A stretch of 64,000 bases of DNA from positions 33,659,883-33,723,882 of the forward strand of contig NC_088789.1 of NCBI RefSeq assembly GCF_949628265.1, given 5' to 3'. This stretch comes from Cloeon dipterum. Taxonomy: Eukaryota > Arthropoda > Insecta > Ephemeroptera > Baetidae. A program made the translations under genes and the position numbers. Below the pieces are notes generated by a model. It made no database searches. It had not been told where the DNA came from and worked only from the letters and a program-made list of their open reading frames with translations. Shown here piece after piece: positions 1 to 36,018 of this stretch (the first letter of the stretch is position 1; each line of letters opens with the position of its first letter).

Positions 1-33
1 AATACGGATCAGGAGGCACGATTGAGTTAAAAC

Positions 34-1811
34 CTTCAAAATTGTTCAGGCATTCCAATCCCTCGATAGAGGTCACTGTCAAAAGGGTCATGTTCAGCGC
101 CTTGCATCGCAAAGCTGCTTCGTTCCTCGTTGCCTAATTTCATAATTAAAATATTTCTAGAATTAAAATCACTAGTTCTTACTGTAGAGGTGGAAACAAA
201 ATACTCCAGGCTACAATTTGATGTTTTCTTCGTGCCTTTGGCTGAGATAATTTTAAAATATTTATTGTTTGCAATTTAAAAAACCTACTTTGCACTGCTC
301 CGAGGGTTGGGTTACTCTAAATTTTATACAATAAATATAATTTAAAATCGCATATTTGTTACTGGAGGCTCAAATTTTGTAGGGCAGCCGATTGAAACCA
401 GAAGAAATTTTACCTTCCTCACAGAAAATCCGCGGAATTTAAATGACAGTTACTTTTTGATCTGAATCAAAACTAGTGAATTTAACCCCAGTGACGCAAT
501 CAGAGGTTACGTGGTTTTGCTAGGTTTAGACCAAAATGCACTATGTATAACAGTTTTCATGTTTCGGCATGTCGAGTAAATCGGCGTCCTAACTTAATTC
601 GAACCTTCGGAGTCGATCAGTCGATTGTTGATGAAAAAAATCATACCGCAAGAAAACTGTTGTAAGCTGCACAAGATAAACTGCACGGAATGGGCTGTAA
701 TTTGCTGATAGTTAAATATCCACATGGTTTTAAAAAATTTAAACAGACTGTGGTTGTTGTAGTGGTCGTGGGTGTGGTTGTTGTTGTGGTCGTGGATGTA
801 GTTGTTTTCGTCGTAGTGGGTGTAGTAATTGTCGTACCCGTGGGCATAGTTGTTGTCATCCTGGGCGTTGTTGTTGTAGTTATAGCGGCAGTATTTGTTT
901 CCGACATCGTGGATGTATTTATAGCCATTATAGAGGGCGTGGTTGTTAAAATTTTGGGTGTTGTTATCGTCCTCATCGTGGGCGTGGTTGTTGCCATCGC
1001 TTGCGAAGTTATTGATGATAGTGAAGTAGGTCCAACTTTAGAGGAAATGGCGTCGATTGCAGTTGTCTTCTGGAAAACCTGCGTCGATGGAAAGGCCGCC
1101 TCGGTCGTAGGATTTGGTAATTTGGGGCCATCTTGCACCGTTAATATCACTTTGGTCGTGAACGTCAGTAATGGCCTCCTCCGGAACGCCAGTTGGAACA
1201 ACTGTCACATCGAGGGGGCGTGGACTGGAATCGTGACCTGAATTTTCGTCCGCTGAGCATAGATTTTTATATTTTCAATTTTATTTTACTCGTCTCTACA
1301 GTGATGGCATCCGTTGGTGCTGATGTTGATGATTCACCAGCGAAGCTTCCTGTCATGGCTGCCGTTTCCAACGAGGACGGTGCTGTTAGCATGCTAGTGG
1401 CCTGTTTTAAAACACATTTTAACTCTGATTTCAAGTTTTCCATCAATGCATATATACCTTGCTGGTTGGAGTTTTCTTTTTTACCGTTGCATTCGCAGTT
1501 GCCTGACATTTTTTAAATCCGCAACACGTGATGATATACCTTCTCCGATATTTGTTTTGCAGAAGAGATTTTGGGATTTTAATTGGACCTGATTGGAGTT
1601 TTAGTTATTTATTCTTTTTCAAACCAAAACGCCTACCAGAATTCTGTTTGTTAAATGTGATTTTGAAGGTTTTAATTTTGTTTCCCTGCAAGACATTTTA
1701 ATCAAAACTTGAAGCAGGCAGTTGATTTAGGAATGTACTTACTTGTTTTTTTGCATGCCCGATAGTTTGAAGAGCAACAATCACAAGCAACGTCCAGAAA
1801 CCAAAATTCAT
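34..1811 (-). pseudogene. Copy A, 5' part of CTLD-mucin-OBP gene (cut by window edge, frameshifted)
   Basis: Only the first exons are in the window. Seen, in reading order: signal-peptide exon 1743-1811 (ATG at 1811, hydrophobic core, donor GTAAGT), 49-nt exon 1637-1685, basic exon 1458-1588 with CCGFKKC, Thr-rich exon 1401-749, the PIPCSLSC linker exon 647-694, and the first three CTLD1 exons 289-316, 183-241 and 34-133. All borders and phases match copy B. The Thr-rich exon is not open throughout. An early indel is removed if the 52-nt AT-rich stretch 1238-1289 is spliced out. One extra T near 1164, compared with the same site in copy F, still shifts the frame and leads to an early stop. 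The copy is therefore a young pseudogene, a polymorphic null allele or carries a sequence error. The rest lies to the left of position 1. Confidence 0.72.
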
Positions 1812-5405: not shown

Positions 5406-7429
5406 CCTCCGGAAAAATGGGTTTAGGTTTAGAAAGGGTTAAAATAAATAATTATTTACCTTCTTTTGAACGCTCGTCAGTGACGACTGTCGGAAGAGTG
5501 ATAAAAATTAAATGTTTCATGAAATCAAAAGCAATATTTGGTTTTATCTATGCTGCGCAGTGCTTTGACACACAAATTTAATCATTTATTTGATTAAAAA
5601 ATTCTGTTTCATTAATATTTTCATGAATTGTACAATTTTTAAGCTGTTGGAATTCTAATTATTTTTAATTAGTGCTCGTCTACAAGCTTCTGTGTATCGC
5701 AGAGGAGAAAATAAAAGAAAAGCTGATAATTAACCAGACCTGATTGCGTGTGACTCTGTTCCCGACACAAATTTTTAATAATAATTCTGCGGCAGTAAAA
5801 TTATATTTTTTTAACACTTTCAATAAAAACACTCGGATTAATCTCATACATTCTTTTAATAAAATATAATCTTTATTTGTTTTATCTTACATATTTCGGT
5901 AATCGGCCCGCGTCGGCCTCGCTCTTCACAGAGTAAAGTCTTAACACGTTTCATTTCTTTTGACAAGTCATTTTATGTGATGATTGAAAAACACTGTTCA
6001 CTTTTTCAAGTTAGGACAAACAAACATGATTTAAGAAAACATTTTTATCTATTCTGCCTGTCGACTGGCGAGTGAAATGAATCGTCCTACATGAATGACG
6101 GTTAAATTTCGTGAAAATAGAAATAGCAATTCAGAAAATGTCAAAACATGCTCGGATTTTATTCGCATTATATTTTTATAAATAAGCCATATGACCGCTC
6201 ATGTTGTATGTATAAAGCTTTAATAAAACCGCTTTAATAAAAGGCAGGAAACTGTTGAACTAAATCGTTTTGGCAAACAGCCGGCCACGACGAATCACTC
6301 ATGCGGCGAGGTTGGAAAAATCGGTTTTCCGGTTGTGCACGAGCGTTGTCACGCGTCCAAGCAAATGAAACACTCGCACGGATTTTTTTGTTTCATTCGC
6401 GGCGCTGCGTATAAATGGAATGCCTTTATAATGCGCCGGGAAAAAAGAAAAATTACGCAACCTGCGCTGCAAATAAGTCGAACCGGTTGCATAGTCTCAA
6501 GGTTAGAATCGGAGTGGACGTGCGGCTCGTTACTTCCTCTCGCTCTTTATTCCGCCGTCATTTCTCCAACAATATTTAATAAGGTTCACACTTTGGCGAA
6601 CCATCCCTTCCTTCCCCAAAAGTAAGTCAACGTTCCAGGGGATTTTCAAAGGGACCCCGAAATAAAACGCTTTCCTATCTTCCAGTGTAAAAATATCGCC
6701 AAAAACGTCAATTTCGGGCGATTTTTTTCAGTTTCGGTACTCACGGCCCCCGCGCGAGGGATGTGTGGCTTCTGGGGTCTTGAAACTCGAGATTCGGTTA
6801 GTGATTGTCGAGACAAAGGTAACGGTGTGCGGAAATCCGAATTTGAGCCCTATTAATTGGGAAAATTTGCCCATACTTCGCCCTTAGAACCTTTCTTCGA
6901 GGATGGCGTCGTCCCTGGGTAAATATTAAAAATAAGGACCAAGTTCATCGATGCGCAGTTTAGTTTCGATCACTCTGCGAGCCGTAGGAGACGAGTTATT
7001 AATTTTTAAAGGTGAAAAAACAACATGGTAAATGGTAAATTTCATCCCGTTTCAGCGAGTGATCTCACCGGGGAAGTTGACACAAACTCAAATCTCGAGT
7101 TTTATATCCTTGGGACCTTTGTAAAAATTAATCTGATGCGAAATTTAAATAAAAAAACGAATTTATTTTTCCCGAAATAACTTAACAAGGTGTGAAAAGA
7201 GCCATAAAAAATGGGAAACATTATTAAAAATGACATATTGTGGAAAAAAATTAATTAAGAGCAAGTCAATTAGTTGAGCCGAAATGCTCGTCTGCAAGCG
7301 CCTGTGTATCGCAGCCAAGAGGAGAAGATAAAAGAAATGCTGATAAATAACCAGACCTGATTGCGTGACTCTTTTCTAGATACAAATTTTTTATATTTAT
7401 TTCTATAAATTCTAATGTTCGGATCCGCT

Positions 7430-9835: not shown

Positions 9836-9904
9836 ATGAATTTCGGCTTCTGGACGTTGCTAGTGATTGTAATTGCTCAGACAACAGGGCATGCAAAAAA
9901 ACCA
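9836..9904 (+). other. Copy B signal-peptide exon
   Basis: Encodes 23 residues starting MNFGFWTLL with a hydrophobic core and GHA just before the expected cleavage site. The donor is CCA|GTAAGT. The same 69-nt exon begins every copy. Confidence 0.85.
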
Positions 9905-12900
9905 GTAAGTACACTCCTTAATTAATATTTGGTATCGATTTTTGCCTAAAATGAGAGTTATATATAGGGAAGCAAAATTAAAACCATCAAAATCACATTT
10001 AACAAACATGATTCTGGTAGGTTTTAAGTTGAAAAAGAATAAGTAACTTTAATTTCAAACAGGTCCTATTAAAATCCCAAAATCTCTTCTGCAAAACAAA
10101 TTTCGAAGAAAACATATAATCAAGTGTTGCGGATTTAAAAAATGTCTGGCAAATGCTACGGTAAAAAAGACCACTCCGACCAGCACGGTATATGCATTAA
10201 AGGAAAATTTGAAATCAAGTTAAATTGTGTTTTAAAGCAGACCGACAGCATTCTGACAGCAACTTTCGCGTTGCCAACGGCAACGATGGCAGCCATAACC
10301 GGAAACTCTGACGGTGAACCATCGTCAGCGGCACAAACGGATGCCATCACGGCAGCGAGTAAAATAAAAATTCGAATAAAATTCGATGCTCAAGCGTTCG
10401 AAAAATCAGGTCACGATTCCACTCCTAGCCCCCTTGATGAGACAGATGTTGCACCTGACGGGCCGGTTGAGGCCACAAACGACCTTAAAACTGACGTCAC
10501 GATGAAAGCGACCGAAATGGCGCAAGATGGCACAAAATTGCCGACTCCTTTGATCGATGCGGACTTTCCATCAACGCAGGTTTTCCAGAAGACAACTGCA
10601 ATCGATGCGATTTCATCAAAAGATGGAATTATTTCACTATCATCAACAACATCGCAAAGGATGACAACAACCACGCCCACTATAAGGACAACAACAACAG
10701 TGCCCAGAATGGCAGCAACTACGCCTACGACGACAACTACGCTAAGGACAACAACAACAACAACCACAGTCCGTTTATAATTTTTCTAAAATCATAAGGA
10801 AATTTAACAGAAGAAAATTCCAGCCAATTCCGTGCAGTTTATCTTGTGCAGAGTCTAAAAATTTTCTTGCGGTATGTTATATATTCTTTATTCTTGATTT
10901 GAGCCATCAATTAAATCCTGAAGGAACGAAAAGGGTTAGTTGGCCGATTTACTCAACATGCCGAAACGTAAAAACCGTTACCACAGTGCCTTTTTGTCTA
11001 AACCTTAGCAAATAGTGCTATAAATCGAGCTAGGAGATGGGAGCGACGCAGCGATAGATAGAAAAATTAATAAGAGACAAGGCTGGCAAATGCGGCACTG
11101 TAAGAACAACATAATGAACGGTGTTAATTACGCTCCCAGTCGAACGCGAACGGTCCAAAAATTGCCAGACTGCCAGAGGACCAGATTGGACATTTTTTCC
11201 GACCGTAGTTGACGAGAATTAGTCTGTCCGCGCGCGACTTGGGATTAGGAGCGCGCGACGCGAGGTTTCGGACCGAATGATCCCCTTCATGGACCATTTT
11301 TGCCATACTGTCTCGGATTGTTCGATCTACACAGAAACAAAATTTATCGGTCCCTTCAAAGAGTGATTTTGCTCGCCGCCAAAATCGGTGCTTTGAATTT
11401 TTCAATTTTAAAGTAGATTTCGATGGCTAAAATTATATTTTATTCTATTTCTGGCTTGAAGGTTAAAAAGTAACTGTTTTCCAAGGCACGCGATAGGTCA
11501 AATTTTCATCCGTATGAAATCGGCTCCTATTCCACATTTGAACCTCCCATACAGCAACAATTAATAATCGTAACTTTATTCATTTCTTTAATTTAGAATA
11601 ATCCAACCCCAGGAGAGCCAGAAAGTAGGTTTTGTTTAACAAAATAACAAATTACGTCTAATCTTAAATTAAACGCAGCAAAAGGCACGAAGAAAACATC
11701 AAATTGTGAATTGGAGTATTTTGTTTCAAGCTCTACAGTGAGATTTTTTATTCTAATTCAGGATGATTTTTAAATACAAAATCAGGCAACGAGAAATGAA
11801 GCAGCATTGCGATGCAAGGCGCTAAACATGACCCTTTTGACCGTCACATCTGTCGAGGGATTGGAATGCATGAACAATTTTGATGGTTTTAACTCGATAG
11901 CTTTTGTTACGTGAACATTATTAATACTCTTAATCAAGCCAAAACGTACTCGACGAGCGGCTCAAACGAAGACGAAAACTGCAATGTGGAAAAAAAGTAC
12001 GCTTGGTGCTCGACGGGCTTCGATATGTCGAAAGAACTAATCGAATCGGAAAAACTTTGGTTGGCGACCAACAACACGATCCCTTCTGCCACGGAGCGAT
12101 GTTTGGCCGTTTCTTTATCCACAGAATCCTCGAAACAGGGTTTGGTGCACAAAAAGTGCGACGACGCCCTGCCCTTCATCTGCCAGTATTCCGTCGACTG
12201 CCCAAAGATCTGCAACCGAAACGTTCGGTCTTGAAAACATACAAATTCATTTAGTTAAGTCAATTCCATTTCAGAACTCCTTATTTGACTCCTCAGGAAA
12301 TTTAAAAGGTATAAAAGCATTTTTAAGAGTGATCAAAAGATAATTTAAGTAAATATGGAGACAAAAAATCCTTCGGAATTTGGGTTGACATCGGCAACTA
12401 CACCTATCTCTTGGGGAACAAACCAGTTTGTATCCGAGTCTAACATAACTGCAAAGTTTGATTTTTTGCTTGACAGATGACGTGGATAAACAGTTACCAC
12501 CAATGTTGCGCTTTGGGAATGGAGGCGCTCAACATTGACAACGTAGCCGAGCAATTGGGCCTTACTGCCATGACCGTGGCAAATAAAGGTTAGACCTTTA
12601 ATTTAATAATCAGTCCATAGAAATATTTTGGAATTTCAGACAACTGGACTGCGAATTTCAACTACTGGACTAGCGGCACGTGGAATGGGGCGCCTGTTAA
12701 GCAGTGGTCGTGGTGCGAGCCAAATGGACCAAAGGTTTTCCCAAAAGGTCTTGTTTGGGAACCCTCTCAGCCCGACAACAAAGGAGGCAACGAGAGCTGC
12801 GTGCATTTCCGCTTTAACTTGCCTACTAGAGGGGCCTTCATGACAGACCGCAGCTGTTCCAATAAATTAATTTTCGCGTGCAAGGTATAAAGACTTGAAA

Positions 12901-15900
12901 TTAATTTCGGCCCAAGTTAGGATTTAAAATTTCAGAGCGTTCTAAAAACCACCCCAAAACCTTGCGTTTCTTCCTGCCCAACTGAGAAGTGCAATAGAAA
13001 TGTAGAAACTATATCTTTAAAAGATGAATGGATAAACTTAGCATTAAATTAAAATCTAGGATGACCTATTTAGCCCGGACTCTTCGAATCGGCCAATTTT
13101 AAAGGGTATATAGTTAACTTCCTGTTGTTAAAAATAAACCTTGTAATTCTGTATTGATATCAAGACTATTTCTCTTATGGATTCTGGTACGATGGATGTG
13201 GTCGGAACTTTCTGATTTACAATTCTAAATTTGTGAGACATCAAATAATTTTTAATAGTTAAAAAAATATTAAAAAAATGATCAACAGTCGAACTGGACA
13301 AACGCCCGTAACAGTTGCTGTGAAATTGGCCTCACTCTGACCTCAATGGAATCAGCGGGCAAGTCGAGTTGCTTTTCCAGAATAGTCTCAAGTACTAATA
13401 AAAATTAAAAGAGTGACAAAATAAAGTTTAATATACAAAACCACTCAAGAATTTGCTCCGGCGACCTATGGAGACTTCTGGCTCTCCGGTACAGATCTGG
13501 GGTGCGATTCAAAGTTCCACTGGTGCACCCTGAGCCGGGACTTCGTCGACCCTGAGGTCAAATGGAAGGAGGGACACCCTAAGCCTGGCCTGGACTGCGT
13601 TTATCTCGAAGTGAGAAATGGATCCTTGTTGCTGGCCACCGATGACTGCGCCCAAAACAAGAATTTTCTCTGTGAAGTGAGGAAGAAGGGTACCTTCGGA
13701 AGGGCCATGCAGACCGAATGTGCAGAAACCTGGGACATCACCGTTGGTAAATGCCCGAAAATCATTTTGTTTAGAATGGCTAAACGGGAAGTTAATTTCA
13801 TGCAGAACAAATCGATCTTCTTATGAACGTGAGCGCTTTTCTCGTGGCAACTATTTCGCACAATTTGAAGGTTGGACAGAAATTTGTGAACATTTCAATC
13901 CATTAATTAAAATATGCATTTTCAGTGCTTCTTGAAATGCGTCGGAGTGGAAATTGGAATGGTATTAAAACATAATTGAACGACAAAATATAAATCTCTT
14001 TTTCATGGTTTTTAATACGCTTTTGCTTTATTGAAAATTAAAATTTTAAATCATATATGACAGCCTCATAATAATTGTTATCCTTTAGTTCGGCATTGGG
14101 GGATTGGAAGCCTTAGCAACGCTGCGACAAATAGAACTCGTGTCCCAGGAGGACCCCGTGGAATTGGAAACAGGATTTGTGGCTTACGATCAATGCAGCG
14201 GCATCAGTCTGTGTTTTCTTTTTGTAACATATTGCCAGAAATTAATTTTTAAAACAGAATCCGACGACGAGTGTGTGATTGCCCACGAAACTTACAAGTG
14301 TGGCCAGGAAAAAGCGCCAAATTTGGTCTCAAAAATCATCACCAACAACTTCGATAACCAGACAATGGTTTGATTTAAAAATTAATTAGTATTCTTGTTT
14401 CAACAGCATTATTCTTGCAATAGTCAATACAATAAATACACATTGAATGGAAATTTTAAAAGCACGAAATGGCGAACAGTACTAGCAAAATAAAGCTAAA
14501 ACGATTCTTTGCAAAGTAATATCACGCCGTACTGAGCCGCAAATTAAAATTTTATCACTGATCACTATCACTTTACACTTGCCACCAGAATTGAAGGATT
14601 GAAATTTTTTCTTCTTAAAGCTGATACCACCAACTCCTTGTGTTCCGGTGCGCCGAACTTGTTGGCTTTCGAACACTTTACCTTGCGTAAAAAATGTAAA
14701 TTCATTTATTAGTTTTCAGGTCATATCATTTATGATTTTCTTTAAATTGTAGCAAACCTTGATCGACCTGACCAATTATACTGGGGCTTGTAATTAATTC
14801 TTTACAAATCTACTGAAACTATAATTTCATCTGCTCCAATCCATATTCCTCAGGGTCAAAATAGATATGATAATCAATAACATTTAGGATCGAAAAATTC
14901 GTTGTGCGCACCGGAAAAACGTTCGTTTTGCTTTTTGCGCCTCTGGCAGGTCTGCTCTCGCGTCACCACCACACCCATTTTGACCCTTAGTAATTATTAT
15001 TCATTATTATTATTATTCATTTTATTGGACACCATCGGTGTACAACTAAAGTCAATTACAAATTTATTTATTATAACGGAATGCTTGTGATAAAGTTAAA
15101 GGTTTTTTGACACAGTCTAGTAAATGGTACATACTAGAAAGCAAAGAATCACAATAAATACATTTACAATTAGCGGTGACTTCGAGATGAAAACATTTAT
15201 GTGAACAGAGACGAGGAAATGATAGCCATGAAAAGAATATCTAGTGACCCTTAGTAATAGATTGGAATAAAAAATGTGGTTTCTAGTGGGAATTGAATCT
15301 CATGAATAATTCTAATTCTACAAATCAACAATTTAGACAAACCGGGAAATTTCAAGACGGTTGACAACAGGATATTTTATTTTGCATATGATCCGAACGC
15401 AATTCTTGTAAATAATATTTTCACCATATTTGGCTGTTGAACTCTACGCTCTTGCAATTTTAGACTCCATATATTGCCTACACTCGTTGCTGCGAACTCG
15501 GAATGAATCTCGTAGAACCTCAGACGCTTGCAGATTATGTATTACTCACAGCAAACTTTGGTATTCCATGTTATTTTCTTTAAAATTAAATTAACCATTA
15601 CAAATATAACGATTTTTCACATATTTGATTCAAATATTTTAAACTTCACTGTCCAGGAAGGTCCACACAAAAATAATAAACCTTCTTTTGTTTCACAAAT
15701 TGACGCACACGATGTTGATAAGGAATCTAAATTCATGTATTTGGTGCAGCTGGCTATTCTCAAATGATGTTGGGCGAGACAGAATTCATCAACCAGACGC
15801 ACGAGGTGTGGTGTCGCAGCCGCACCCTTTTGCCGGATGCCTTGTATGAAGCGGCTTCAAGATACCAATGCGGTCCGACGTACCTCAGAACGATACATAG

Positions 15901-16033
15901 CATAATTTATACCTACCCAGTGGAAATAAATGACCCCAAGACCTCTGCTAAGACCGTAGTCACCGGAGCAGTGTACCCTGACCCTTCCAAAGTGGTTTCC
16001 GATGTGCAGACGTATATCTGCGAGAAACCCTAG
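9836..16033 (+). CDS. Copy B: secreted CTLD-mucin-OBP fusion protein (~28 exons)
   Basis: Reference model. Exons: 9836-9904, 9968-10016, 10063-10187, 10241-10358, 10410-10768, 10824-10871, 11597-11624, 11679-11737, 11786-11885, 11939-12222, 12275-12308, 12361-12425, 12477-12588, 12640-12884, 12936-13001, 13060-13105, 13165-13232, 13289-13391, 13450-13746, 13806-13870, 13926-13961, 14089-14206, 14258-14367, 14621-14695, 14753-14789, 15337-15407, 15464-15560, 15750-16033 (TAG). All phases agree and the frame stays open: about 1,055 aa, or 1,072 if the 51-nt intron at 10359 is retained. Order by residue: signal peptide 1-21, basic Cys segment 24-81, Thr-rich 82-240, CTLD1 257-413, CTLD2 414-565, CTLD3 588-735, OBP 740-868, CTLD4 894-1055. 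No transmembrane segment follows the signal peptide, so it should be secreted. It is the only copy on the plus strand. The weakest donors are 12223 (GTTCGG) and 10769 (GTCCGT), both supported by conservation among copies. Ligands are unknown. Confidence 0.82.
9968..10187 (+). other. Copy B basic, cysteine-containing N-terminal segment (two exons)
   Basis: Exon 9968-10016 (49 nt, phase 1) and exon 10063-10187 encode a Lys/Arg-rich stretch ending in IIKCCGFKKC and a Thr-rich tail. This frame is open in every copy despite substitutions, whereas the other frames contain stops. Inserting the 49-nt exon is what fixes the phase. No known domain was recognised. Confidence 0.7.
10241..10768 (+). other. 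Copy B Thr/Ser/Pro-rich mucin-like segment
   Basis: It encodes a low-complexity region that ends in ACA/ACG/ACC threonine runs, the typical target of dense O-glycosylation. A 51-nt AT-rich stretch (10359-10409, GTAAAATAAAA...AATCAG) behaves as an intron in copies A and C. The segment probably forms an extended stalk between the N-terminus and the lectin domains. Confidence 0.7.
11597..12222 (+). other. Copy B CTLD1 module (4 exons)
   Basis: The exons are 28, 59, 100 and 284 nt, with junction phases 1, 0 and 1. Lectin-fold signs are ATRNEAALRCKALNMTLL (helix 2 with Cys) and CDDALPFICQ at the end. There is no EPN/QPD or WND, so calcium-dependent sugar binding is unlikely. A DCPKIC linker follows. 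Confidence 0.78.
12275..12884 (+). other. Copy B CTLD2 module with QPD motif (4 exons)
   Basis: Exons of 34, 65, 112 and 245 nt. Signs are CCALGMEALNI, YWTSGTWNGAP, QWSWCEPNGPKVF, QPDNKGGNESCVHF and an ending IFACK. QPD is the galactose-type determinant of Ca-dependent lectins. At the WND position the sequence is MTD followed by R-S-C, so the site is only partly canonical. It is the one CTLD likely to bind sugar, and QPD is retained in all six copies that reach this far. Confidence 0.82.
13060..13746 (+). other. Copy B CTLD3 module (4 exons)
   Basis: Exons of 46, 68, 103 and 297 nt. Signs are NSCCEIGLTLTSME, YGDFWLSGTDLGCDS, WCTLSRDF, GLDCVYLEVRNGS and DDCAQNKNFLCEV. HPKPG stands where EPN/QPD would be. 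The last exon runs straight into the start of the OBP domain (first OBP Cys at 13719-13721), so the two domains share an exon. Confidence 0.8.
13719..14367 (+). other. Copy B odorant-binding-protein (PBP/GOBP) domain
   Basis: It spans the end of exon 13450-13746 and exons 13806-13870, 13926-13961, 14089-14206 and 14258-14367. The six cysteines have spacing C1-X30-C2-X3-C3-X42-C4-X8-C5-X8-C6, within the classic OBP pattern. Diagnostic pieces are CFLKCVGVEIGM (C2-X3-C3), VAYDQCSG (C4) and DDECVIAHETYKC (C5-X8-C6). OBPs are helical, disulphide-locked carriers of small hydrophobic ligands. The same six Cys occur in C-G. The call rests on the spacing, the CFLKC and EC...YKC motifs, and the helical character between them. 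Confidence 0.82.
14753..16033 (+). other. Copy B CTLD4 module (4 exons, C-terminal)
   Basis: Exons of 37, 71, 97 and 284 nt with the phases of the other CTLD modules. Signs are AYTRCCELGMNLVEPQT, INQTHEVWCRSR and the end VVSDVQTYICEKP-stop. There is no EPN/QPD. It is preceded by the Cys-rich linker exon 14621-14695 (PPTPCVPVRRTCWLS...PCVKN). Confidence 0.75.
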
Positions 16034-19040: not shown

Positions 19041-22000
19041 CTAAGGTTTTTCGCAGACAAACCGCTCTACATCCGTAACCACTTTAGAGGCGACAGGGTA
19101 CACTGGTCCAGTGACTTCTGTCTTATTATTCGTCTTGGGATCAATTACGAACATTTTTTCGACCAAGAGAGTACTCTGATAGACATTCAATCTGAAATAG
19201 GACGGATAGCATTGGTATCTTGTATTCGGAGCGAACATGTCATCTGCCAAAAGGGTGCGGCTGCGACACCAAACCTCGTGCGACTGGTTGATGAACTCTG
19301 TCTCGCCCAACAACATGTAATATCTACCACCTGCAAAAAATAATACATGACTTTCGATTCCTCATGTGCGCATCATGTGCGATGAAATCTTTGTCAAATT
19401 AAAAAAGGTTTATCTTCCCGATCGGTTAAGAATAATTAATTTCAATCAACAAATCAACAAATGTCAATATTTGCATAAGCTTAATGGTTTTTGGTTAAAT
19501 TTTTAAGGAGATATACAACATTGAAAAGTGCATACCCACGGTTGAAATAATAAATTTAGAATCTTCAAGTGTCTGAGGTTCTATGAGATACATTCCAAGT
19601 TCGCAGCAACGAGTGTAGGCTTCATACGGAGTCTAAAATTGCTAGAGCGTTAATTTCATAATTTCCAAACTTGTTGATTATTTACTGGAGCTGTTGAATT
19701 GCCGGTAATATAAAATGTTCTATTTCCAACTTTCTTGATGAATCCGAATTCGTCTATTATATTGTTGATTTGTGATACATCATTTTTTATAGCTTTAAGG
19801 TCCACTTAATATACATTTTCGTATGTTCTAATCGATCCCTGTGGGTCGAAATTGATGGGGTAAATGCTTTTTCTAATCTAATAAAATGTTTTGCGACCTG
19901 CGAGCAGAGGCGCAAACCCAAATTTTAATAATGCATGTTGTTTTAGATATATTTGCAATGCATATGGAAATGTTGGTAGCGACGTCTGTGCAAGCGTCAC
20001 CCCTCTGACGTCACAGCCGTGATTTGTGATTGGAATTGAAACCAATACTCGCACATAACAAAATATTTCATCGGAAAAAATATTTACGACCAATAGGAAT
20101 CGATTGAAACAAACGAAAATTTGGATTCAGCGGGTGTTTAGATAAAAATTACCTGTCCCGTTTATATTCAATAAGTCGATTGCCGTTTGCTACAATTCAC
20201 ATAAAATCTTAATTAACATGTCCTGAACACCAAAGACTAAATTTACGTTTTTTACGCAAGGAACAGTGTTCGAAAGCCAACAAGTTCGGCGCACCGGAAC
20301 ACAAGGAGTAGGAGGTATCAGCTTTCAAAAGAAAAAAGTCACTCATTTTATATTAATGATTTTTAAAGCATACCATTGAATTGTTATCGTAGTAGTTCGT
20401 GATGATTTTTGAGACGAAATCAGGTGCTTTTTGCTGGCCACACTTGTAAGTTTCGTAGGCAATCACACACTCGTCGTTGGATTCTATTTTAAAAATTAAT
20501 TTCTGGCAATTATTTAAAATTAAACATACTGATGTCACTGCATTGATCGTAAGCCACAAATCCCGTCTCCAATTTCGCGGGTTCCTCCTGGGACACGAGT
20601 TCTATTTGTCGCAGCGTTGCTATTGCGTCCAATCCCCCAATGCCAAACTACGGAATTTACATTAAACAGGATCGAGTATTAAAATATCCACGAGAAAAAA
20701 TTGATCTAACTTAAATCTTTAAATTCTGTTTAAATACCATTCCAATTTCCACTCCAATGCATTTCAAGAAGCACTAAAATACGCATTTTGTTTATGAAAT
20801 GGAAGGATTACAAATTCCCGACTTACCTTCAAATTTAGCGAAATTGTTGCGGTGAGAAAAGCGCTAACGTTCATTAGAAGATCGATTTGTTCTGCAAGAA
20901 ATGGACTTTCCGTCTTGTCATTTTCAAAGGAATTATTTCCGGGCATTTACCAACGGTGATGTCCCAGGTTTCTGCACATTCGGTCTGCATGGCTCTTCCA
21001 AAGGTACCCTTCTTTCTCACTTCGCAGAGAAAACTCTTGTTTTGGGCACAGTCGTCGGTGGCCAGCAACACGGATCCATTTCTCACTTCGAGATAAACGC
21101 AGTCCAAACCGGGTTTCGGGTGTCCCTCCTTCCAAGTAAGCTCAGGGTGGACGAAGTCCCGGCTTAGGGTGCACCAGCGGAAGTTTGAGTCGCACCCCAT
21201 ATCCGTGCCGGAAAGCCAGTAGTCACCAAAGATCGTCGGTGCAAATTCTTCAGTTGATTTTGTTAAAATTAATTTAGTCTCTCAGGTTTAAATCGTACTT
21301 GAGACAATTCTGGAAAAGCAACTCGACTTTCCCGCTGATTCCATTGAGGCCAGAGTCAGCCCAATTTCACAACAACTCTTACGGGCGGCTGTCCAGGTTG
21401 ACTTTATTGATCATTTTTTAGTTCTTTTGTAAAACTGAATGAAAAATTGGTTCACGTCTCACCAATTTTGAGGTGTAAGTCAGAAAGTTCCGGCCACACC
21501 CGTCGTACCAATTCCCATAAAAGAAAAAGTCTGGATAACAATACATAATTACGTATTATTTAAAAATGGGAGTAAATTATACCCCGTAAGACTTTCTCAT
21601 TAGAGATGGTGTCAAAGAGGGAAAGCTTTATTTTAAATTAATGCCACATTTATCGATTCATCTGAAATACACATTTTACATTTTTTTCGAAGCTCTCTAT
21701 TGGGCAGGAAGCAACGCATGGTTTTCGGGTGGTTATCAATGCACTCTGAAATTTTTATATCATAGTTGTTGCCTAAAAATTAACAAATCTTTACTTTGCA
21801 CGCGAATATATATTTATTGGAACAGTTGCGGTCCGTAATGATGGTGCCGGTTGTATTTAAGGTAAAGCGGAAATGCACGCAGCTCTCGTTCCCTCCGTTA
21901 TTGTCAGGCTGGAGGTTTTCCCAAACAAGACCCTTTGCGAAAACTTTAGGTCCATCGGGCCTGCACCACGACCATTGCTTCACTGGCGCCCCTTTCCACG

Positions 22001-25000
22001 TGCCACTGGTCCAGTAGTTGAAATTGGCAGTCCAGTTGTCTGAAATTTTAAAATATTTCCTAGGAAACTATTTTATTTTTATGACACGACCTTTATTTGC
22101 TCCAACCAGGGCAGTAAGGGCCAATTGCTCAGCTGCGTTGTCGATGTTGAGCGTCTCCATTCCCAAAGCGCAACACTGCCTGTTACTATCCAACCACGTC
22201 ATCTATCATGCCAAAAAATCAGACTTTTGTCCCATGCGAGTGTCGGTTACAAACCGGTTTGTTCCCCAAGAGGTAGGTGTAGATGCCGATATCAACCCAA
22301 AATCCGTAGGACTTTTTATCTTAATATTTAATAAGATTAAAGTTTTGATCATTTTTTCAATTTCTTTTATATACACACCTTTTAAATTTCCTGAGGAGTC
22401 AAATAAGGAGTCCTGGAATGGATGAAACTTAATTTAACGAGTACCGATTTATTATAATTCGAACGTTTCGGTTGCAGAGCTTTGGGCAGTCGACGGAATG
22501 CTGGCAGATGAAGGGCAGGGCGTCGTCGCACTTTCTGTGCACCAGGCCCTGTTTCGTGGATACTGTGGATAGAGAAACTGCCAAACAACGTTCTGTGGAG
22601 GACAGGTTCGCGTTATTGGTCGGCAACCACAGCTTTTCCGATTCGATCAGTTTTTCCGACATCTTGAAGCCAGTCGAGCACCAAACGTACTTTTTTTCCA
22701 AATTGCAATTAGCATCTTCGTTCGAGCCGCTTGTCCAGAAGGTTTTGGCTTAATTAAGAGTATCAATATTTATCGTTTAGCAAAAAAGTGTGAGTTTAAA
22801 CCTTCAAAATTGTTCATGCATTCCAATCTTTCGAGAGAGTTGACGGTCAAAAGTGTCATGTTTAGTGCCTTGCATCGAATTGCTGCTTCGTTTCTCGTGG
22901 CCTAATGATTTATTGATTTAAATTTGCTCAGAGTTAGAATAAAAATAATCTTACTGTAGAGCTTGAAACAAAATACTCCATACCACAATCAGAAGTCTGC
23001 TTCATGCCTTGGACTGAGTTAAAATGAAATTACTTAATGTATCCTAATTTCGTAAAAAGAAAACACCTACTCTCCTGTGATCCTGAGGTTGGATTATTCT
23101 AGATTAAAAATACATATCTTATAAGTTTGGATTTTTGATGCCTGGAGGCTCGAAATTTGGTTCGGCTGCTGAATCACTCCAATTGAAAATTCGACTTAAA
23201 TAACGTGCCAAAAATACTAGGAAGAGTAAAAACAGTTTTTTTTGGTCGTAATAACCTAGCAATATAAACACGAGTGACGCAATCAGAGGTGTGTGGTTCT
23301 CTGATTGGCTTTTTAACGTAGTAGCAACGGCCACATAGTTCCTTGTCTATTATGCTGTGTCACAGTCATCTCGATATAGCACCCCTGCAAGAAAAATGAT
23401 GTCAGTGACGTGAAAATGACGAAAAATTTTGTATTTTCAAAAGGCTTTAAATTTTGATTTTGAACAACTAAAAACAAGTTTTGTTGGTTTTCCATTGAAT
23501 TTTGAGCAAATTTGGAAAATTTTCACATTCCTTCAATGACGTCACTGAGACATCACTGTGATATCACTCACGTCACGGTTGCACTCCCGTAGAGACGAGG
23601 AATGAAAATGATGTCAAAATGATATCATATTGACATACCCACGGTGACCAAACGTTTTAATATTTTTCCGTTGATATACCAAAGAAATCAATATAATATC
23701 TCTAAAATTTTCCAATTTTGGAAAAAATTCAAAAAATTTAAAAATCAAAAAAATATTTTTTGTCATTTTTTCATACTTTTTTAAATTATATTATTGCAAA
23801 TGGGGCCTACAATTCAGGTGTGCCGGGTCACGATTCGATGTGATGTCAAAGTGATGTCAAAGTGATGTCAAAGTGACGTCAAAGTGACGTCAAAGTGATA
23901 TCAATATGACATGCTCAGCGTGATGATTTTTTGAAATTCTGGGGATGCGCGTGATATCAATGTGACATCAATGTGATGTCCCAAAAGAATTTGAAACAAA
24001 AAAATTTGAAATCTTTGCTGATCATTAACATTGAAATTAATTAATTAATTTCATAATTTTTTTGTTTCAAATTCTTTTGGGACATCACATTGATGTCACA
24101 TTGATATCTAGCGCATCCCCAGAATTTCAAAAAATCATCACGCTGAGCATGTCATATTGATATCACTTTGACATCACATCGAATCGTGACCCGGCACACC
24201 TGAATTGTAGGCCCCATTTGCAATAATATAATTTAAAAAAGTATGAAAAAATGACAAAAAATATTTTTTTGATTTTTTTAATTTTTTGAATTTTTCCAAA
24301 ATTGGAAAATTTTAGAGATATTATATTGATTTCTTTGGTATATCAACGAAAAAATATTAAAACGTTTGGTCACCGTGGGTATGTCAATATGATATCATTT
24401 TGACATCATTTTCATTCCTCGTCTCTTCGGAAGTGCAATCGTGACGTGAGTGATATCACAGTGATGTCTCAGTGACGTCATTGAAAGGATGAGGAAATTT
24501 TCCAAATTTGCTCAAAATTCAATGGAAAACCAACAAAACTTGTTTTCAGTTGTTAAAAAAACATCGTGACGTGAGTGATATCACAGTGACGTCACAGTGA
24601 CGTCATTGAGGGAATGGGAAATTTTCCAAATTTGCTCAACATTCAATGGAAAACCAACAAAACTTGTTTTTAGTTGTTAAAATAAAAATCGTGACGTGAG
24701 TGATATCACAGTGACGTCACAGTGACGTCACAGTGACGTCACAGTGACGTCATTGAGGGAATGGGAAATTTTCCAAATTTGCTCAACATTCAATGGAAAA
24801 CCAACAAAACTTGTTTTTAGTTGTTAAAATAAAAATCGTGACGTGAGTGATATCACAATGATGTCACAGTGACGTCATTGAAGGAATGGGAAATTTTCCA
24901 AATTTGCTCAAAATTCAATGGAAAACCAACAAAACTTGTTTTTAGTTGTTTAAAATAAAAATTTAAAGCCTTTTGGAAATACAAAATTTTTCGTCATTTT

Positions 25001-26863
25001 CACGTCACTGACATCATTTTTCTTGCACTTAAGTGCAATTGTGACGCGAGTGATATCAAAGTGATGTCACAGTGACGTCATTGCAGGGATGGAAAATTTA
25101 ATGCTTGAATAAGGAAATCAGTAAATATTTTTATTTTATAAAATGGAAAAAACTCGATGTTTTCGATTGGTTGGAAACGCAAATAATTTGCGATGGCTGG
25201 GAGATTAAGATTATTAAAATAAAAGTGGCAAGCGTGACGGGGCTACTTTTTCCGCTGACGCTCATAACGGTGGAGATTCCTTACACTCAGAATTATATTG
25301 TATGCGATGTATGTGACAATAAAAAATAATTCATATGCGTGTTCTTCGTTCCTAATCAAAAAATTAATTGAATTTTCCAGGAAAAAATATAACTGTGATG
25401 TCATATTGATATCACCAGGGTGACGTCAAATTGACGTCACTAAATGTCCGTCACAATGGGATCATATTGACATCATTATGATATCACGACCAAAAAATTT
25501 TTCCCAGAAAATTATTTTTATTGCATTTTTAAAACTTGAGGTTGAAAATGCTATTAAAATGATTTAAAGAAAATTTTCTGGGGAAAATTTTTTGGTCAAG
25601 ATATCACCTCAAGTGACGTCAATATGACGTCATATTGACGTCACTCCAGGTTGGAGCTCGGAATACGGATCCAAAAACTGTCAGTTTTGAAAATGCTATT
25701 AAAATAATAGCATTTGGGGAAAATTTTTTGGTCGTGATATCATAATGATATCAATATGATCCAATTGTGACGGACATTAAGTGACGTCAATATGACGTCA
25801 CCCGGGTGATATCATGTGACATCAATATGACGTCACAGTGATATTTTTTTTCTTGCAGGGACTCTTTGCTATTTAGTTAATTATACCAAAATAATCACTA
25901 GAGAAGTAGTTAACGCTTTCACATTTCAGCTTGTCTAGTGATTCAGCCACTTGAACTAATTCGACCCTCAGAAGTCAATTGATGGCACAAAACATGAGTA
26001 AAATAAACATACCGCAAGAAAACTGTTGTAATCTGTACAAGATAAACTGCACGGAATCGGCTGTAATTTTAAACTATTTATTAATACCTAAACGGTTTTA
26101 ATAAAAATTCATATGCAGACTGTGGTTGTTGATGTTTTCGTCGTAGGTGTAGTGTTTGTTGATGATTTTGAGGTAGTAGTTACAACTTTTGATGAAATCT
26201 TGTGGACAACCTGCGTCGATGGAGAAGGATGATTAATAAGCGATTTAATTCCATCTTGCTCCGTCGCTGTTTCAGTCTCATCAACGTGACCTGATTTTTC
26301 GACCGCTGTGAGCGTCAATAATTTTTCTGAAATTTTATTTTACTCGGTATAGTGATGGCATCCGATGGTGCCGATGCTTCACTAGCAGAAGAGCTTCCTG
26401 TCATGGCTGCCGATGCCAACGAGTACGTGACTGTTCGGATGCTTGTGGTCTGTGTTAAATCGAAATGTTACAACGATGCCAAGTTTCTATAGTTTAAAGC
26501 ATATACCGAGCTGGTTGGATTGGTCTTTTTTACCGTTTCATTTACAGATGGCAGACACTTTTTAAATCCGCAACACTTGATGATATGAAATCTCCGAAAA
26601 TTGTTTTGCAGTCGAATTTTGGGGATTACATTTGGACCTGATTGAAATTTAAGTTATGCTTTTTCTTTTTCAAACTAAAACTTACCATAATTCTGGTTGC
26701 TAATTATGAATTTGATGGAATTTATTTTGCGTCCCTATATTATGACATTATAATCAAAACTCTCTCCCGGGAATTTATATAACAATTTACTCACTCGATT
26801 TTTTGCATGCCCTATTGTCTGAAGAACAACAATCACAAGCAATGTCCAGAAACCGAAATTCAT
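19041..26863 (-). CDS. Copy C: secreted CTLD-mucin-OBP fusion protein
   Basis: Same exon plan as copy B. Key exons: signal peptide 26863-26795; Thr-rich 26449-26121; linker 26060-26013; CTLD1 last exon 22748-22465; CTLD2 last exon 22039-21795 (QPDNNGGNESC); CTLD3 last exon 21247-20951; OBP exons including 20773-20738 (CFLKCIGVEIGM), 20647-20530 and 20483-20374 (ECVIAYETYKC); C-terminal exon 19330-19041. Lengths equal those in B except the last exon (+6). The Thr-rich exon is the shortest of the family. It is frame-broken if read straight through, but in frame when the internal GTAAAATAAAA...ATCAG stretch is spliced out, so the gene is probably functional. The intron between linker and CTLD1 is about 2.9 kb because of a palindromic satellite. 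The linker after CTLD2 has lost a Cys. Confidence 0.78.
19905..20100. repeat. Dispersed GACGTCACAGC repeat in a CTLD4-region intron of copy C
   Basis: Contains GAGGCGCAAACC, CAAGCGTCACCCCTCTGACG and GTCACAGCCGTG. It is related to elements in the equivalent intron of F (48780-49000) and G (55560-55800) and at 62510-62720. Confidence 0.5.
23320..25860. repeat. Palindromic TGACGTCA/GATATC-rich satellite in an intron of copy C
   Basis: A large inverted repeat is centred near 24040 (AATTAATTAATT). The left arm, about 23330-24035, and right arm, about 24045-24530, share CAGAATTTCAAAAAATCATC, GTCACGATTCGATGTGATG and TGGTCACCGTGGGTATGTCA as reverse complements. To the right is a tandem run of four to five units of about 140-165 bp (24425-25000), each starting CGTGACGTGAGTGATATCAC and ending in ACCAACAAAACTTG. 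A second inverted pair lies at 25380-25860 (TTTTTTGGTCRWGATATCA / GTGACGGACATTA). The region is dense in TGACGTCA and TGATATCA palindromes. No protein or transposase frame was found. Confidence 0.85.
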
Positions 26864-29921: not shown

Positions 29922-32900
29922 CTAAGGTTTCTCGCAGATATACCGCTGAACATTCGTAACAACTTTTGAAACGACAGGGTACACATCTCCAGTGACTTCT
30001 TTCGGGATGTATATGTTCTTGGGATCAGCTATACGAAGTCCTTCAGATAACAAATTATACGCCCATGCATTTGGATCAATTCTGAGGTGTGATGGATTGC
30101 AGTAGTATCTGTATAGCGGATCGTACATGTCATCTGCCAAAACAGTGCGGCTGCGACACCAAACCTCGTGCGTCTGGTTGATGAATTCTGTATCGCCAAC
30201 CATCATTAAAGAGTAATAACCTGCACAAATCAAAGGTGGTTTATAATTATTTTCGTGTTTGACTTTATATGACATGATGTTTGTGCCGTATAATTGTTAT
30301 TATTATTTTTAAGGATATAAAACAAACAAACCATACCAGTAGCTAATGTTATAAATTCAATATCAGCTTTTGTCTGAGGTTCTATGAGATACATTCCAAG
30401 TTCGCAGCAATGAGTGTACGCATCATACGGAGTCTAAATTTGCAAGAGTGTTTAAATTTCAATTGGCAAACATGTGGCGAATATTTACCGGATTTGCATT
30501 TTGTTTGGTCACATAAAATGTCCTGTTTGATCCACCAGGTCTCGCAATGGTTCCAAATTGGTCTATATTTAATGTTGATTTGTAAAACCAAATTTTTCAA
30601 ATCAAGTGTCACTAAAACCACATTTTTGTAAGATCCGATCGATTCCTGAGGATCGAAATAATTGAAGAAAAAGATTTCTCACCTATTTCGCACCTCAGGA
30701 ATCTCGAGAGGAATTTATAAAACGCGATTTCAGTGCGTTTGTAAAGAATTAATTACCTCCACCATCTTTATACAATAAGTCGATTGCGGTTTGCTACAAT
30801 GAACATGAGATCTTTAATAATACGTCCTGCAAACCAATGAGTGAATTTACGTTTTTTACGCAAGGAAGAGTGCTCGAAAGCCAACAGGTTCGGCGCACCG
30901 GAACACAAGGAGTTGGTGGGTACAGCTTTAAGAAAATAATCAAAATCTTGATTGAAATATATTTAAATCAGACCATTGTCTGGTTATCGAAGTTGTTGGT
31001 GATGATTTTTGAAACCAAATCAGGTGCTTTTTCTTGGCCGCACTTGAAAGTTTCGTGGGCAATCACACACTCGTCGTCTGATTCTATTTTAAAAATTAAT
31101 ATCTGGCAAGAAATTAAAAAGAGAAAACTCAAACTGATGCCACTGCATTGATCGTAAGCCACAAATCCCGTCTCCAATTTCTCGGGCTCCTCCTGGGACA
31201 CGAGTTCTATTTGTCGCAGCGTTGCTAAAGCGTCCAAACCCCCAATGCCAAACTAAAGAAAAATAATTGTTTAGAATCTGTTTTACATGAATTAAAATCC
31301 AACAGGAGATTGGATTAAAAAAGAACATGTTGCAATTTTCAAATTTGTTTTCAATACCATTCCAATTTCCACTCCGATGCATTTCAAGAAGCACTAAAAT
31401 GCGTATTTTTATTTATGATATGTATGACGAGCGTTAATTTTTAACCAACCTTCAAATTAAGCGATATAGTTGCCGTGAGAAAAGTGCTCACGTTCATTAG
31501 AAGATCGATTTGGTCTGCATATAATTGGTTTTCCATTCAATTTCAAAGGAATGAATTCCGGGCCTTACCAACGGTGATGTCCCAGGTTTCCGCACATTCT
31601 GTCTGCATGGCCCTTTGGAAGGTACCTTTTTTTCTCACTTCGCAGAGAAAACTCTTGTTTTGGGCGCAGTTATCGGAGGCCAGCAACGCGGATCCATTCC
31701 TCACTTCGAGATAAACGCAGTCCAGACCGGGTTTCGGGTGTCCCACCTTCCACTTCACCTCAGGGTCGACGAAGTCCCGGCTCAGGGTGCACCAGCGGAA
31801 GTTTGAGTCGCACCCCAGATCAGTGCCGGAAAGCCAGAAGTCTCCAAAGGTTGTCGGAGCAAATTCTTAAATTATTTAACTTTACTTTATCCCTCTCGGA
31901 TTTAATTATAGTACTTGAGACTATTCTGGAAAAGCAACTCGACTTCCCCACCGATTCCATGGAGGCAAGAGTCAGACCAATAGCACAGCAACTGTCACGG
32001 GCGACTGTCCAGTTTGACTAATGATAATATATTTAGTAACTTTTGAAAAAGTCAGTGACAGTTAATTCCATATTTTACCATTTTATAGGTGTAAGTCAGA
32101 AAGTTGCGGCCACATCCATCGTACCAGTTGCCATAAGAGAAATAATCTGGATGACAAAGTACAGAAATCAAAATTTTTGTAACCTAAATTAATATCCATA
32201 CTCCGTAAAGTTTTCTCATTCGTATTTAAGTTTGTGTCAAAGAGAGTATCCTAGAGTTTTGATTGATGCCATATTTATAGATTCATTTTTAATTAATATA
32301 TAAAGATATAGATTTTACATCTTTTTCGCATTTTCCTATAGGGCAGGAAGCAACGCAAGGTTTTGGGGTGGTCCTTAATGCACTCTGAAAATTAAATTCA
32401 TAGTTTCAGACCGATTTAAATTTCAAGCTATACTTTGCACGCGAAAATATATTTATTTGCGCAGTTGCGGTCTGTCATGATGGTGCCCGTGGAATTCAAA
32501 GTAAAGCGGAAGTGCACGCAGCTCTCGTTCCCACCCTTATTGTCGGGCTGAGGGTATTCCCAAACAAGTCCGTTTGCGAAAACTGTCGGTCCGTTTGGCT
32601 CGCACCACGACCACTGCTTCTCAGGCGCCCCCTTCCAAGTGCCACTGGTCCAGTAGTTGAAATTCGCAGTCCAGTTGTCTGTAATTTCAAAATGTCACTT
32701 TAGACTGTTTTTAATTCATGGCCAAATAACCTTTATTTGTGCTGGCCAGGGCAGTAAGGCCCAATTGCTCAGCTGCGTTGTCAATGTTGAGCGCCTCCAT
32801 TCCCAAAGCGCAACACTGGCGGTAACTGTCCAACCACGTCATCTATCAGGCCAAAGATTAGACTTTGGAGCCATGCTAGTCTCGGATACAAACTGGCTTG

Positions 32901-35302
32901 TTCCCCAAGAGATATGTGTAGCTGTCGATGTCAACCCAAAAACCGTATGATTTTTTATCTACATTTTAAGGTTACACTTTTGATCATTCTTTAAATTTCC
33001 TATTATACCTTTTAACAGTCCTGAGGAGTCAAACAAGGAGTCCTGAAATGGGATAGACTTAATTTAATGATTTGAATAAGTTATTTAATTCAAACGTCTC
33101 GAATGCAGATCTTTGGGCAGTCGACGGAATACTGGCAGATGAAGGGCAGGGCGTCGTCGCACTTTCTGTGCACCAGGCCCTGTTTCGAGGATTCTGTGGA
33201 TAAGGAAACGGCCAAACAACGCTCCGTGGTAGAAGCGATCGTGTTTTTGGGCGGCAACCACAGTTTTTCCGATTCGATCAGATTCCTCGACACATTGAAG
33301 CCCGTCGAGCACCAAGCGTATTTTTTTACTAAATGGCATTGATCGTCTTCGTTCGAGCCGCTCGTCCAGAAAGTGTTGGCTTAAATTAAGATAAATAATA
33401 TAGATCTCACAGCACGTGTGATTTTAAACCTCCAAAATTGTTCATGCATTCCAATCCCTCGGGAGAGGTCACGGTCAAAAGGATCATGTTCAGCGCCTTG
33501 CATCGCATTGCTGCTTCGTTTCGCGTTGCCTATGCTTGTATGTTTTATCTTTGTTCCGAATTATAATAAAAATATCGTACTGTTGAGGTAGAAACAAAAT
33601 ACTCCGTGTCACAATTCGATTTCTTCTTCGTTCCTTTTGCTGAGTTTATTTTAAAATTATATATCCTTTTAAATTTCACAAAATACCTACCTTGCTGTGT
33701 TCCTGAGGTTGGATTGTTCTGAAATGAGAAAAATATATTTTAGATCGGGATTTTTATGTTGGAGATTAAAATTTGGAAAGGTAGCCGATTCAATCGGGTT
33801 GAAAATTATACATAAAACATGCCGAAAATACGCGGAAAAACAAGAACAGTAACATTCTGGACTGATGCTATAAAAATTAACACCAGTTGACGCAACCAGA
33901 GATGTGCTCTGATTGGCTCTCTGACGTAGCACCAATGGCTGCGACACAGCAGATAGCCTTGTCACTTTTAATTGCTCTAACTATCCCCGTGTCGCTATGC
34001 AATCTCTTTACTAGAAATTTAGACCAAAATTCGATTTGTATTTTTTTTACTTTCGGCATACGTCAAAAGTTATTCGGCAAAACCAAACCTAATTCGATCC
34101 TCGGGAGTCGATTGATGAGGCACAAGACATGAAATTAAACATACCGCAAGAAAATTGTTGTAATCTGCGCAAGATAAACTGCATGGAATAGGCTGTAATT
34201 TTCTTCTAGTTAAATTTCTCTAGGGTTTTAATAAAAATTCATTAACGGACAGTGGTGGTGGTGGTGGTGGTAGTTGTTGTTGTTGTTGTTGTTGTTGTTG
34301 TCGTCGTCGTCGTCGTCGTCGTCGTTCTTAGCGTAGTTGTTGTAATGATGGTCGTAGTTGTTGTCGCCGTGGGCTTACTTGTTGTAGATGTTGGTGTTAT
34401 TGTAGGAGTTACAACTTTTGATGAAATCCCATCGATTGCAGTTGTCGTGTCTTGGACAACCTGCGTGGATGGATCAGAGGCCGCATCGGTCGAAGGATTC
34501 GGCGATTTGGTTCCATCTGACACCGCTTTGGTCGTGAAGTCAGTTACGGACTCACTTGGAACGCCAGTAGTTGGAACAACTGTCACATCAAGCGAGCTAG
34601 GACTGGAATCGTGACCTGATTTTTCGAACGCTTCAGCATCGAATTTTATTCGCATTTTTATTTTACTCGGAATTGTGATGGCATCCGTTGGTGCTGCTGA
34701 TGATGACTCACCAGCAGAGCTTCCTGTCATCATGGCTGCCGTCGTTGCCGTTGGCAACGTTGACGTTGCTGTTAGAATGCTAGTGGTCTGTTTTAAAACA
34801 CAATTTAACTCTGATTTCAAGTTTTCCATCAATGCATATATACCGTGCTGGTTGGAGTTGTCTTTTTAACCGTTGCATTCGCAGTTGCCTGACATTTTTT
34901 AAATCCGCAACACGTGATGATATACCTTCTCCGATATTTGTTTTGCAGAAGAGATTTTGGGATTTTAATTGGACCTGCGATTGAAATTAAAATCGCTTTA
35001 CTTTTTTAAAAAAAAACCCCTACCATAGCCCTGTTTGTTATATGTGATTTTGATGGTTTTAATTTTGTTTCTCTGAAAATCATTTTAATCAATTTATGTG
35101 GAAATTCTTTGGGCTGTGAAATTAGAACATTTTTCTGCTTATTGCATGCCCCCCCCCCCCCCCCCCAATTGCAAGCTCAGAAGAAACAGTCGATTTAAAT
35201 ATCACAGCCAGAAAAATCGTTTTCTCTACTTACATGTTTTTGTGCATGCCCAATTGTCTGAAGAACGCCAATCACGAGCAATGTCCATAAACCGAAATTC
35301 AT
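29922..35302 (-). CDS. Copy D: secreted CTLD-mucin-OBP fusion protein
   Basis: Same plan as copy B, all checked exons in phase. Signal peptide 35302-35234; Thr-rich 34787-34251; linker 34192-34145; CTLD1 first exon 33718-33691 and last exon 33379-33096; CTLD2 last exon 32678-32434 (QPDNKGGNESC); CTLD3 last exon 31865-31569; OBP ends 30974 (ECVIAHETFKC); C-terminal exon 30220-29922. The Thr-rich exon ends in a long pure run of threonine codons (34250-34325), the longest of the family. CTLD3 has changed DDC to DNC. Its promoter module is at 35380-35405. Confidence 0.8.
34250..34326 (-). repeat. Trinucleotide run encoding poly-Thr in copy D
   Basis: A (GTG)n-(GTT)n-(GTC)n run on the plus strand reads as ACC/ACA/AAC-type codons giving about 25 threonines on the gene strand. 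Blocks of pure ACG, ACA and ACC indicate replication slippage. Confidence 0.8.
35149..35166. repeat. Poly-C tract in intron 1 of copy D
   Basis: Eighteen consecutive C on the plus strand, between the signal-peptide exon and the 49-nt exon. The length may be unreliable in assembly. Confidence 0.8.
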
Positions 35303-35916: not shown

Positions 35917-35996
<80 letters not shown>

Positions 35997-36018
35997 TGAG
36001 AGAGAGAGAGAGAGAGCT
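35917..36018. repeat. (GA)n microsatellite
   Basis: About 50 GA units interrupted once by GTGTGAG near 35994. The open frames across it are artefacts of the repeat. Confidence 0.95.

Follow-up and report, generated by a model that had tools for sequence, protein, structure and literature searches.

An odorant-binding-protein domain between the lectin domains of a gene family in baetid mayflies

The stretch of Cloeon dipterum DNA analysed here (64,000 nucleotides of NC_088789.1, positions 33,659,883 to 33,723,882; hereafter the window, whose first letter is position 1) carries a gene at 9836..16033, forward strand, in which an odorant-binding-protein (OBP) domain lies between C-type lectin-like domains (CTLDs). 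The hand-built spliced model of this reference gene has 27 coding exons and encodes 1077 amino acids; splice-site reading with phase testing gave GT-AG introns throughout and no internal stop, and the same junctions were returned by splice-aware protein-to-DNA alignment with residues 651 to the end as query. The model had 25 exons at first, and two N-terminal exons were added on the prompting of a homolog, P0003. From the N-terminus, and with every exon on the forward strand, the order is a hydrophobic first exon (9836..9904) that reads, from sequence alone, as a likely signal peptide; the two added exons (9968..10187, as 9968-10016 and 10063-10187), with an IIKCCGFKKC motif like that in P0003, P0006 and P0038; a Thr-rich, mucin-like exon (10238..10768; residues 81-258, of which 45 of 178 are Thr, 15 Ser and 12 Pro); the exons of CTLD1 (11679..12222), of CTLD2 with its QPD motif (12340..12884) and of CTLD3 (13165..13746); the six-cysteine OBP (13713..14367, as 13713-13746, 13806-13870, 13926-13961, 14089-14206 and 14258-14367); two Cys-containing linker exons (14621..14789, as 14621-14686 and 14753-14789); and a CTLD-like, fast-evolving C-terminus, CTLD4 (15337..16033, as 15337-15407, 15464-15560 and 15750-16033). 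The protein has 14 N-glycosylation sequons and 47 cysteines and, because its N-terminus is hydrophobic, is presumably secreted.

The sequence-only reading of this DNA had placed a six-cysteine OBP between CTLD3 and CTLD4, and this was borne out: the cysteines lie in frame, the first at codon 13719-13721, separated by 30, 3, 42, 8 and 8 residues and accompanied by the motifs CFLKC and DDECVIAHETYKC. This exact spacing did not arise in any of 20000 shuffles of the 1077-residue protein, and a looser classic-OBP range arose in 25 of 20000. The profile matches which that reading called for were also obtained, PF01395 at 5.1e-7 for the domain and 9.1e-9 for the whole protein (35.9 bits against a curated cut-off of 22), and PF00059 at 4.8e-10 for the whole protein, in two stretches (40.6 bits against 22.6); in set A5, chosen among proteins having the domain, PF01395 matched all 32 at E<=0.01. 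Of the single lectin domains, CTLD3 matched PF00059 at 3.1e-7 and CTLD1 only at 0.014, below the cut-off, and CTLD2 and CTLD4 gave no PF00059 match. Since the CTLDs filled the whole-protein fold search, the fold of a shorter OBP-bearing protein was predicted; the model of this close relative has the six predicted OBP helices that had been anticipated, with cysteines in the expected helices, and the solved structures closest to it are OBPs, with D7 structures also matched. The domain resembles the classic insect OBPs (PBP/GOBP, PF01395) in how its six cysteines are spaced, in its Pfam match, and in its predicted helices and where the cysteines fall in them. Unlike those small, secreted, single-domain proteins, it occupies residues 773-893 of 1077, lacks its own signal peptide, and has lectin domains on either side.

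Given that the splice sites were placed from sequence, and that two C. dipterum database models, P0049 and P0050, start near the OBP, it could be argued that neighbouring but separate OBP and lectin genes have been spliced together on paper. However, such an artefact is highly improbable for three reasons: first, the final cysteine of CTLD3 and the first of the OBP are coded by a single exon, 13450-13746, and therefore any transcript with this exon, in this frame, joins the two domains. Second, at the 30 best-scoring CTLD3-centred loci of the genome (window copies included) the alignment covers both domains in every case and is stop-free in 29. Third, models fused in this way are recorded under two naming schemes in C. 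dipterum, and in Neocloeon too. Both junctions, 13746|13806 and 14367|14621, have GT-AG borders and keep the phase. In place of transcript reads the case relies on frames that stay continuous, on purifying selection and on the database models of the two naming schemes, which need not be independent, and an OBP domain inside a multi-CTLD protein is, as the gene models read, an almost certain architecture.

Five further copies and part of another lie in the window, all on the reverse strand: copy 2 (19044..26863; OBP 20984-20374), copy 3 (29925..35302; OBP 31602-30974), copy 4 (40920..46592; OBP 42729-42094), copy 5 (48009..53292; OBP 49890-49298), copy 6 (54756..60156; OBP 56732-56136) and the 5' part of copy 7, from the Thr-rich exon to the start of CTLD1, which is cut by the window start (1..1204). 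Six of seven copies had been taken to be intact, and the six OBPs in the window do keep their six cysteines, with spacing 30-3-42-8-8 exact in the reference and copies 2-6, and are free of stops; the count itself is too low, being seven of seven, as the CTLD3 and OBP assigned by position to copy 7 lie intact outside the window (C4:33658377-33657466, locus L036, same strand). Copy 5 has one script-read stop between CTLD1 and CTLD2, inside a 63-nt GT-AG stretch which reads as an unmodelled intron. The N-terminal part of copy 2 (26863-26013) was aligned apart, beyond a repeat-rich stretch, and is unjoined; the tandem repeats that separate it from the rest lie at 23840-24962, several with TGACGTCA-like units. 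A simple repeat, (GA)49, occupies 35918-36016, about 0.6 kb upstream of copy 3.

With CTLD3 plus the first OBP cysteine as query, 97 loci of the C. dipterum genome formed a top group with E values no worse than 6.8e-25, set apart from the match that followed at 5.4e-20. Read by eye, 96 of these matches extend to query residue 134-136, the part with the OBP cysteine, and that at C1:41342956 ends at residue 125. At least 88 of the 97, on contigs C1, C2, C4 and C5, are followed on their own strand by OBP exons no more than 2.5 kb downstream; L061, one of the nine without listed OBP exons, proved intact on alignment. Subfamily A comprises 24 CTLD3 loci, 19 on C3 and 5 on C5, and comparison of the two match lists by eye placed OBP exon matches downstream of all 24, those of four loci on C5 (25.57-25.60 Mb) being weak (the best E at each locus ranges from 3.5e-4 to 0.06). 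In C. dipterum at least 112 loci combine a CTLD3-type exon with OBP exons, or at least 108 if the four weak loci are omitted. Weak CTLD and OBP matches also lie near each other at C3:13735835-13779870, C4:1557431, C4:31179115 and C5:13175425, and may be divergent further members. The cysteine spacing at the 30 CTLD3-centred loci is exactly 30-3-42-8-8 in 24, within two residues of it in five and unmatched in one, L058, owing to an unmodelled junction intron. A PF01395 profile search of the whole genome returned one locus only, probably because exons were searched singly, and protein queries were used instead.

Among the database proteins collected, a looser form of the six-cysteine pattern is present in 38 of 48. 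Records of the fusion exist: of 38 proteins with Pfam flags considered, 26 are flagged with both domains, under names such as 'uncharacterized protein', three with PF01395 without PF00059, and nine lack PF01395. P0001 (1592 aa) looks like two fusion genes merged into one model, P0008 bears the unrelated Pfam domain PF00884, perhaps by an annotation join, and an NCBIfam scan of P0006 and P0038 gave no match. Neocloeon triangulifer, also of the Baetidae, has at least four fused proteins, of subfamily A, and no fused protein outside the Baetidae was among the matches listed in two database searches needing shared five-residue words; the reach of these searches is limited by word choice, and therefore neither the Neocloeon count nor the absence elsewhere is firm. 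These loci and proteins establish a family of predicted CTLD-OBP fusion genes in baetid mayflies. No close stand-alone relative of the fused OBP was found among 361 candidates preselected by length and shared words; that search yielded the C. dipterum models P0049 (CTLD3 end and OBP), P0050 (OBP and linker) and P0051 (partial OBP and linker).

The introns bear on how the two domains came together. In subfamily A the OBP is bordered by two phase-0 introns, one directly after CTLD3 ends (FLCE|) and one where the OBP itself ends, in 11 of 11 aligned loci, representing nine distinct genes. In subfamily B the intron at the CTLD3 end is gone and a phase-1 intron follows the first OBP cysteine instead; the introns before the second cysteine, after the third and between the fourth and fifth are common to both subfamilies. 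A stand-alone OBP-like exon (L001, C3:3625495-3625665, reverse strand) begins at the second cysteine behind a phase-0 acceptor, a boundary that the fused OBPs share. Phase-0 borders on both sides, together with this exon, form the pattern expected from an OBP cassette inserted at the end of CTLD3, and the subfamily A cassette between phase-0 introns would be as exon shuffling predicts.

Comparison of the parts between copies indicates that they are held to very different degrees. For the six window copies (15 pairs; each CTLD counted with its linker, CTLD4 excepted) the pooled ratio of nonsynonymous to synonymous change (dN/dS) was 0.15 for the OBP, 0.17 for CTLD2, 0.29 for CTLD3, 0.30 for CTLD1, 0.31 for linker 4, 0.45 for the N-terminal region (10 pairs) and 0.69 for CTLD4. 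A larger set, made up of 11 of 30 OBP-centred loci and the six window copies, gave 0.17 for the OBP and 0.75 for CTLD4 (17 genes) and 0.18 for CTLD3 (16 genes); dN exceeded dS in none of 136 OBP pairs, in 19 of 136 CTLD4 pairs and in none of 120 CTLD3 pairs. Synonymous distances are alike (OBP 0.37, CTLD4 0.46, CTLD3 0.31), and therefore age is not the cause of the gap in rate between CTLD4 and OBP. The 19 loci left out ran off the end of the locus, repeated a gene that was already in the set or aligned poorly (L003); three of them, L005, L014 and L029, have a script-read stop before the CTLD4 core, where exon ends are uncertain, and the latter two are window copies 4 and 2, whose separate models are stop-free. 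The ratios were obtained by simple counting on non-independent pairs, and gene conversion is possible, the reference and L021 having near-identical CTLD4. Across the genes compared, purifying selection maintains the OBP and CTLD2 and the C-terminal domain is fast-evolving, which suggests an OBP core that stays constant and a lectin-like end that varies. The part that diverges between copies is the C-terminal domain and not the OBP, a point absent from the functional proposal of the sequence-only reading. The near-identical CTLD4 of the reference gene and L021/L037 (C4:33749931), about 75 kb apart, is accompanied by a common 253-nt intron after the OBP, and either recent duplication or gene conversion may account for the likeness.

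That proposal, the capture of a small hydrophobic ligand by the OBP coupled to glycan binding, is plausible for the predicted protein. Tentatively, and with somewhat less than an even chance of being right, the fusion protein may be a secreted multi-site recognition molecule acting at the body surface, for example on the gill and head epithelium of the nymph or in its mucus. In such a molecule the mucin-like stretch and the QPD-type CTLD2 would hold the protein on glycans, the OBP core would bind a single class of small hydrophobic ligand common to the copies, conceivably a fatty-acid-like one, and the C-terminal domain, being variable, would give each copy its own target, in the manner of a pattern-recognition repertoire. 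Because the OBP is constant between copies, one shared hydrophobic ligand or role is preferred.

Several observations weigh against this reading. The calcium and sugar site of C-type lectins consists of EPN or QPD plus WND, and QPD is usually tied to galactose-type binding. QPD is present in CTLD2 of all 48 database proteins, yet the WND site reads T-D or S-D in 44 of the 45 in which it could be located (three of 48 were not located), and since the asparagine of WND is replaced by T or S, sugar binding by CTLD2 may be weak or lost. CTLD4 of the reference, scanned against Pfam, gave no match; among the six window copies dN exceeds dS in no pair of any part (CTLD4, 0 of 15), and with an overall dN/dS below 1 its variability possibly reflects relaxed constraint. 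L056 (C1:37194761), one of the 30 CTLD3-centred loci, has an in-frame stop inside the OBP and is possibly a decaying gene. Ten of the 48 database proteins lack the six-cysteine pattern, eight of which keep OBP pieces and two (P0035, P0037) none; models with missing exons and real losses are not told apart here.

The predicted OBP fold raises the possibility that the family is instead a set of chemosensory carriers, the OBP taking up water-borne hydrophobic cues and the lectins anchoring it in sensillar or gill mucus. C. dipterum OBPs are reported in nymphal heads and in HRP-positive gill cell clusters (PMC7250882). However, copies that sort odours should differ in the OBP, yet few parts of the protein are as conserved as the OBP, and OBP199, OBP219 and OBP260 of that paper need not be fusions. 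A carrier role is unlikely, as is its corollary that the family represents an aquatic form of odorant transport. A structural or adhesive secretion is also conceivable, in which the OBP is a disulfide-locked spacer, with no specific binding, in a multi-lectin glue, mucus or egg coat: the Thr-rich N-terminal region, the sequons and the many cysteines would suit it, and strong constraint on the OBP does not need a ligand. This is slightly less likely still, given that a spacer role alone does not explain the fast C-terminal domain and leaves retention of the OBP fold in two subfamilies unexplained.

The fusion also has architectural parallels in two groups of multidomain proteins. The mannose receptor, PLA2R and DEC-205 likewise have CTLDs in series and are the top Foldseek matches to the predicted whole-protein model; unlike them, the fusion carries an OBP and a mucin-like stretch. 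The mannose receptor family has cysteine-rich and fibronectin II domains and a membrane anchor, and neither of these domains was found in the Pfam scan of the reference protein. An OBP-fold domain within a multidomain chain is also seen in mosquito long D7 proteins, which join OBP to OBP without lectin domains. Drosophila Obp83cd and Obp83ef are alike in having such a chain and, unlike the fusion, are OBP joined to OBP, as described in PMC2258175; they too have no lectin domains. The multidomain OBPs met so far are OBP-OBP, whereas the present family has the OBP built as one module into a protein of several lectin domains. The sequence-only reading knew of no described lectin-mucin-OBP fusion, and no account of an OBP-lectin fusion was among the papers listed in searches of an open-access library.

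In the heptageniid mayfly Parafronurus youi, PMC13205551 gives 10 OBP genes, whose products measure 135-252 aa and have signal peptides; nine of the 10 share the six-cysteine signature with the fusion, and, unlike it, they are short and the word 'lectin' does not appear in the main text. For C. dipterum, 191 OBP genes were reported in 2020, the largest set at that time; of 152 clustered OBPs, 121 were placed mostly in clusters of nymphal or pre-nymphal type, gills accounted for 82 of 167, and the main text lacks the word 'lectin' (PMC7250882). Expression of the fusion genes may, by analogy, be nymphal, and many of the 191 may be lectin-OBP fusions: were every one of the loci, at least 112 in number, to be among the 191, over half would be fusions, which is arithmetic and not a match of lists. 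The fusion family may therefore alter the reading of this unusually large OBP set. It is possible, though more doubtful than likely, that lectin-OBP fusions and not odorant carriers make up most of the record mayfly repertoire. Exon shuffling in baetids would have produced them, and they would form a diversified system of surface recognition in which the OBP core is invariant and the lectin domain at the C-terminus varies. If so, the 'OBP-expressing' gill cell clusters may be secretory or immune and not olfactory. The pattern of constant core and variable end makes it possible to test directly for a recognition repertoire in a winged-insect lineage that branched early.

Elsewhere in the window no RNA family reached its gathering score. 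A gene like those of Yellow and major royal jelly proteins lies at 4441-5438 on the reverse strand; its 5040-5438 part had no match in the Pfam scan, and 4441-5043 matches PF03022 at 6.9e-19.
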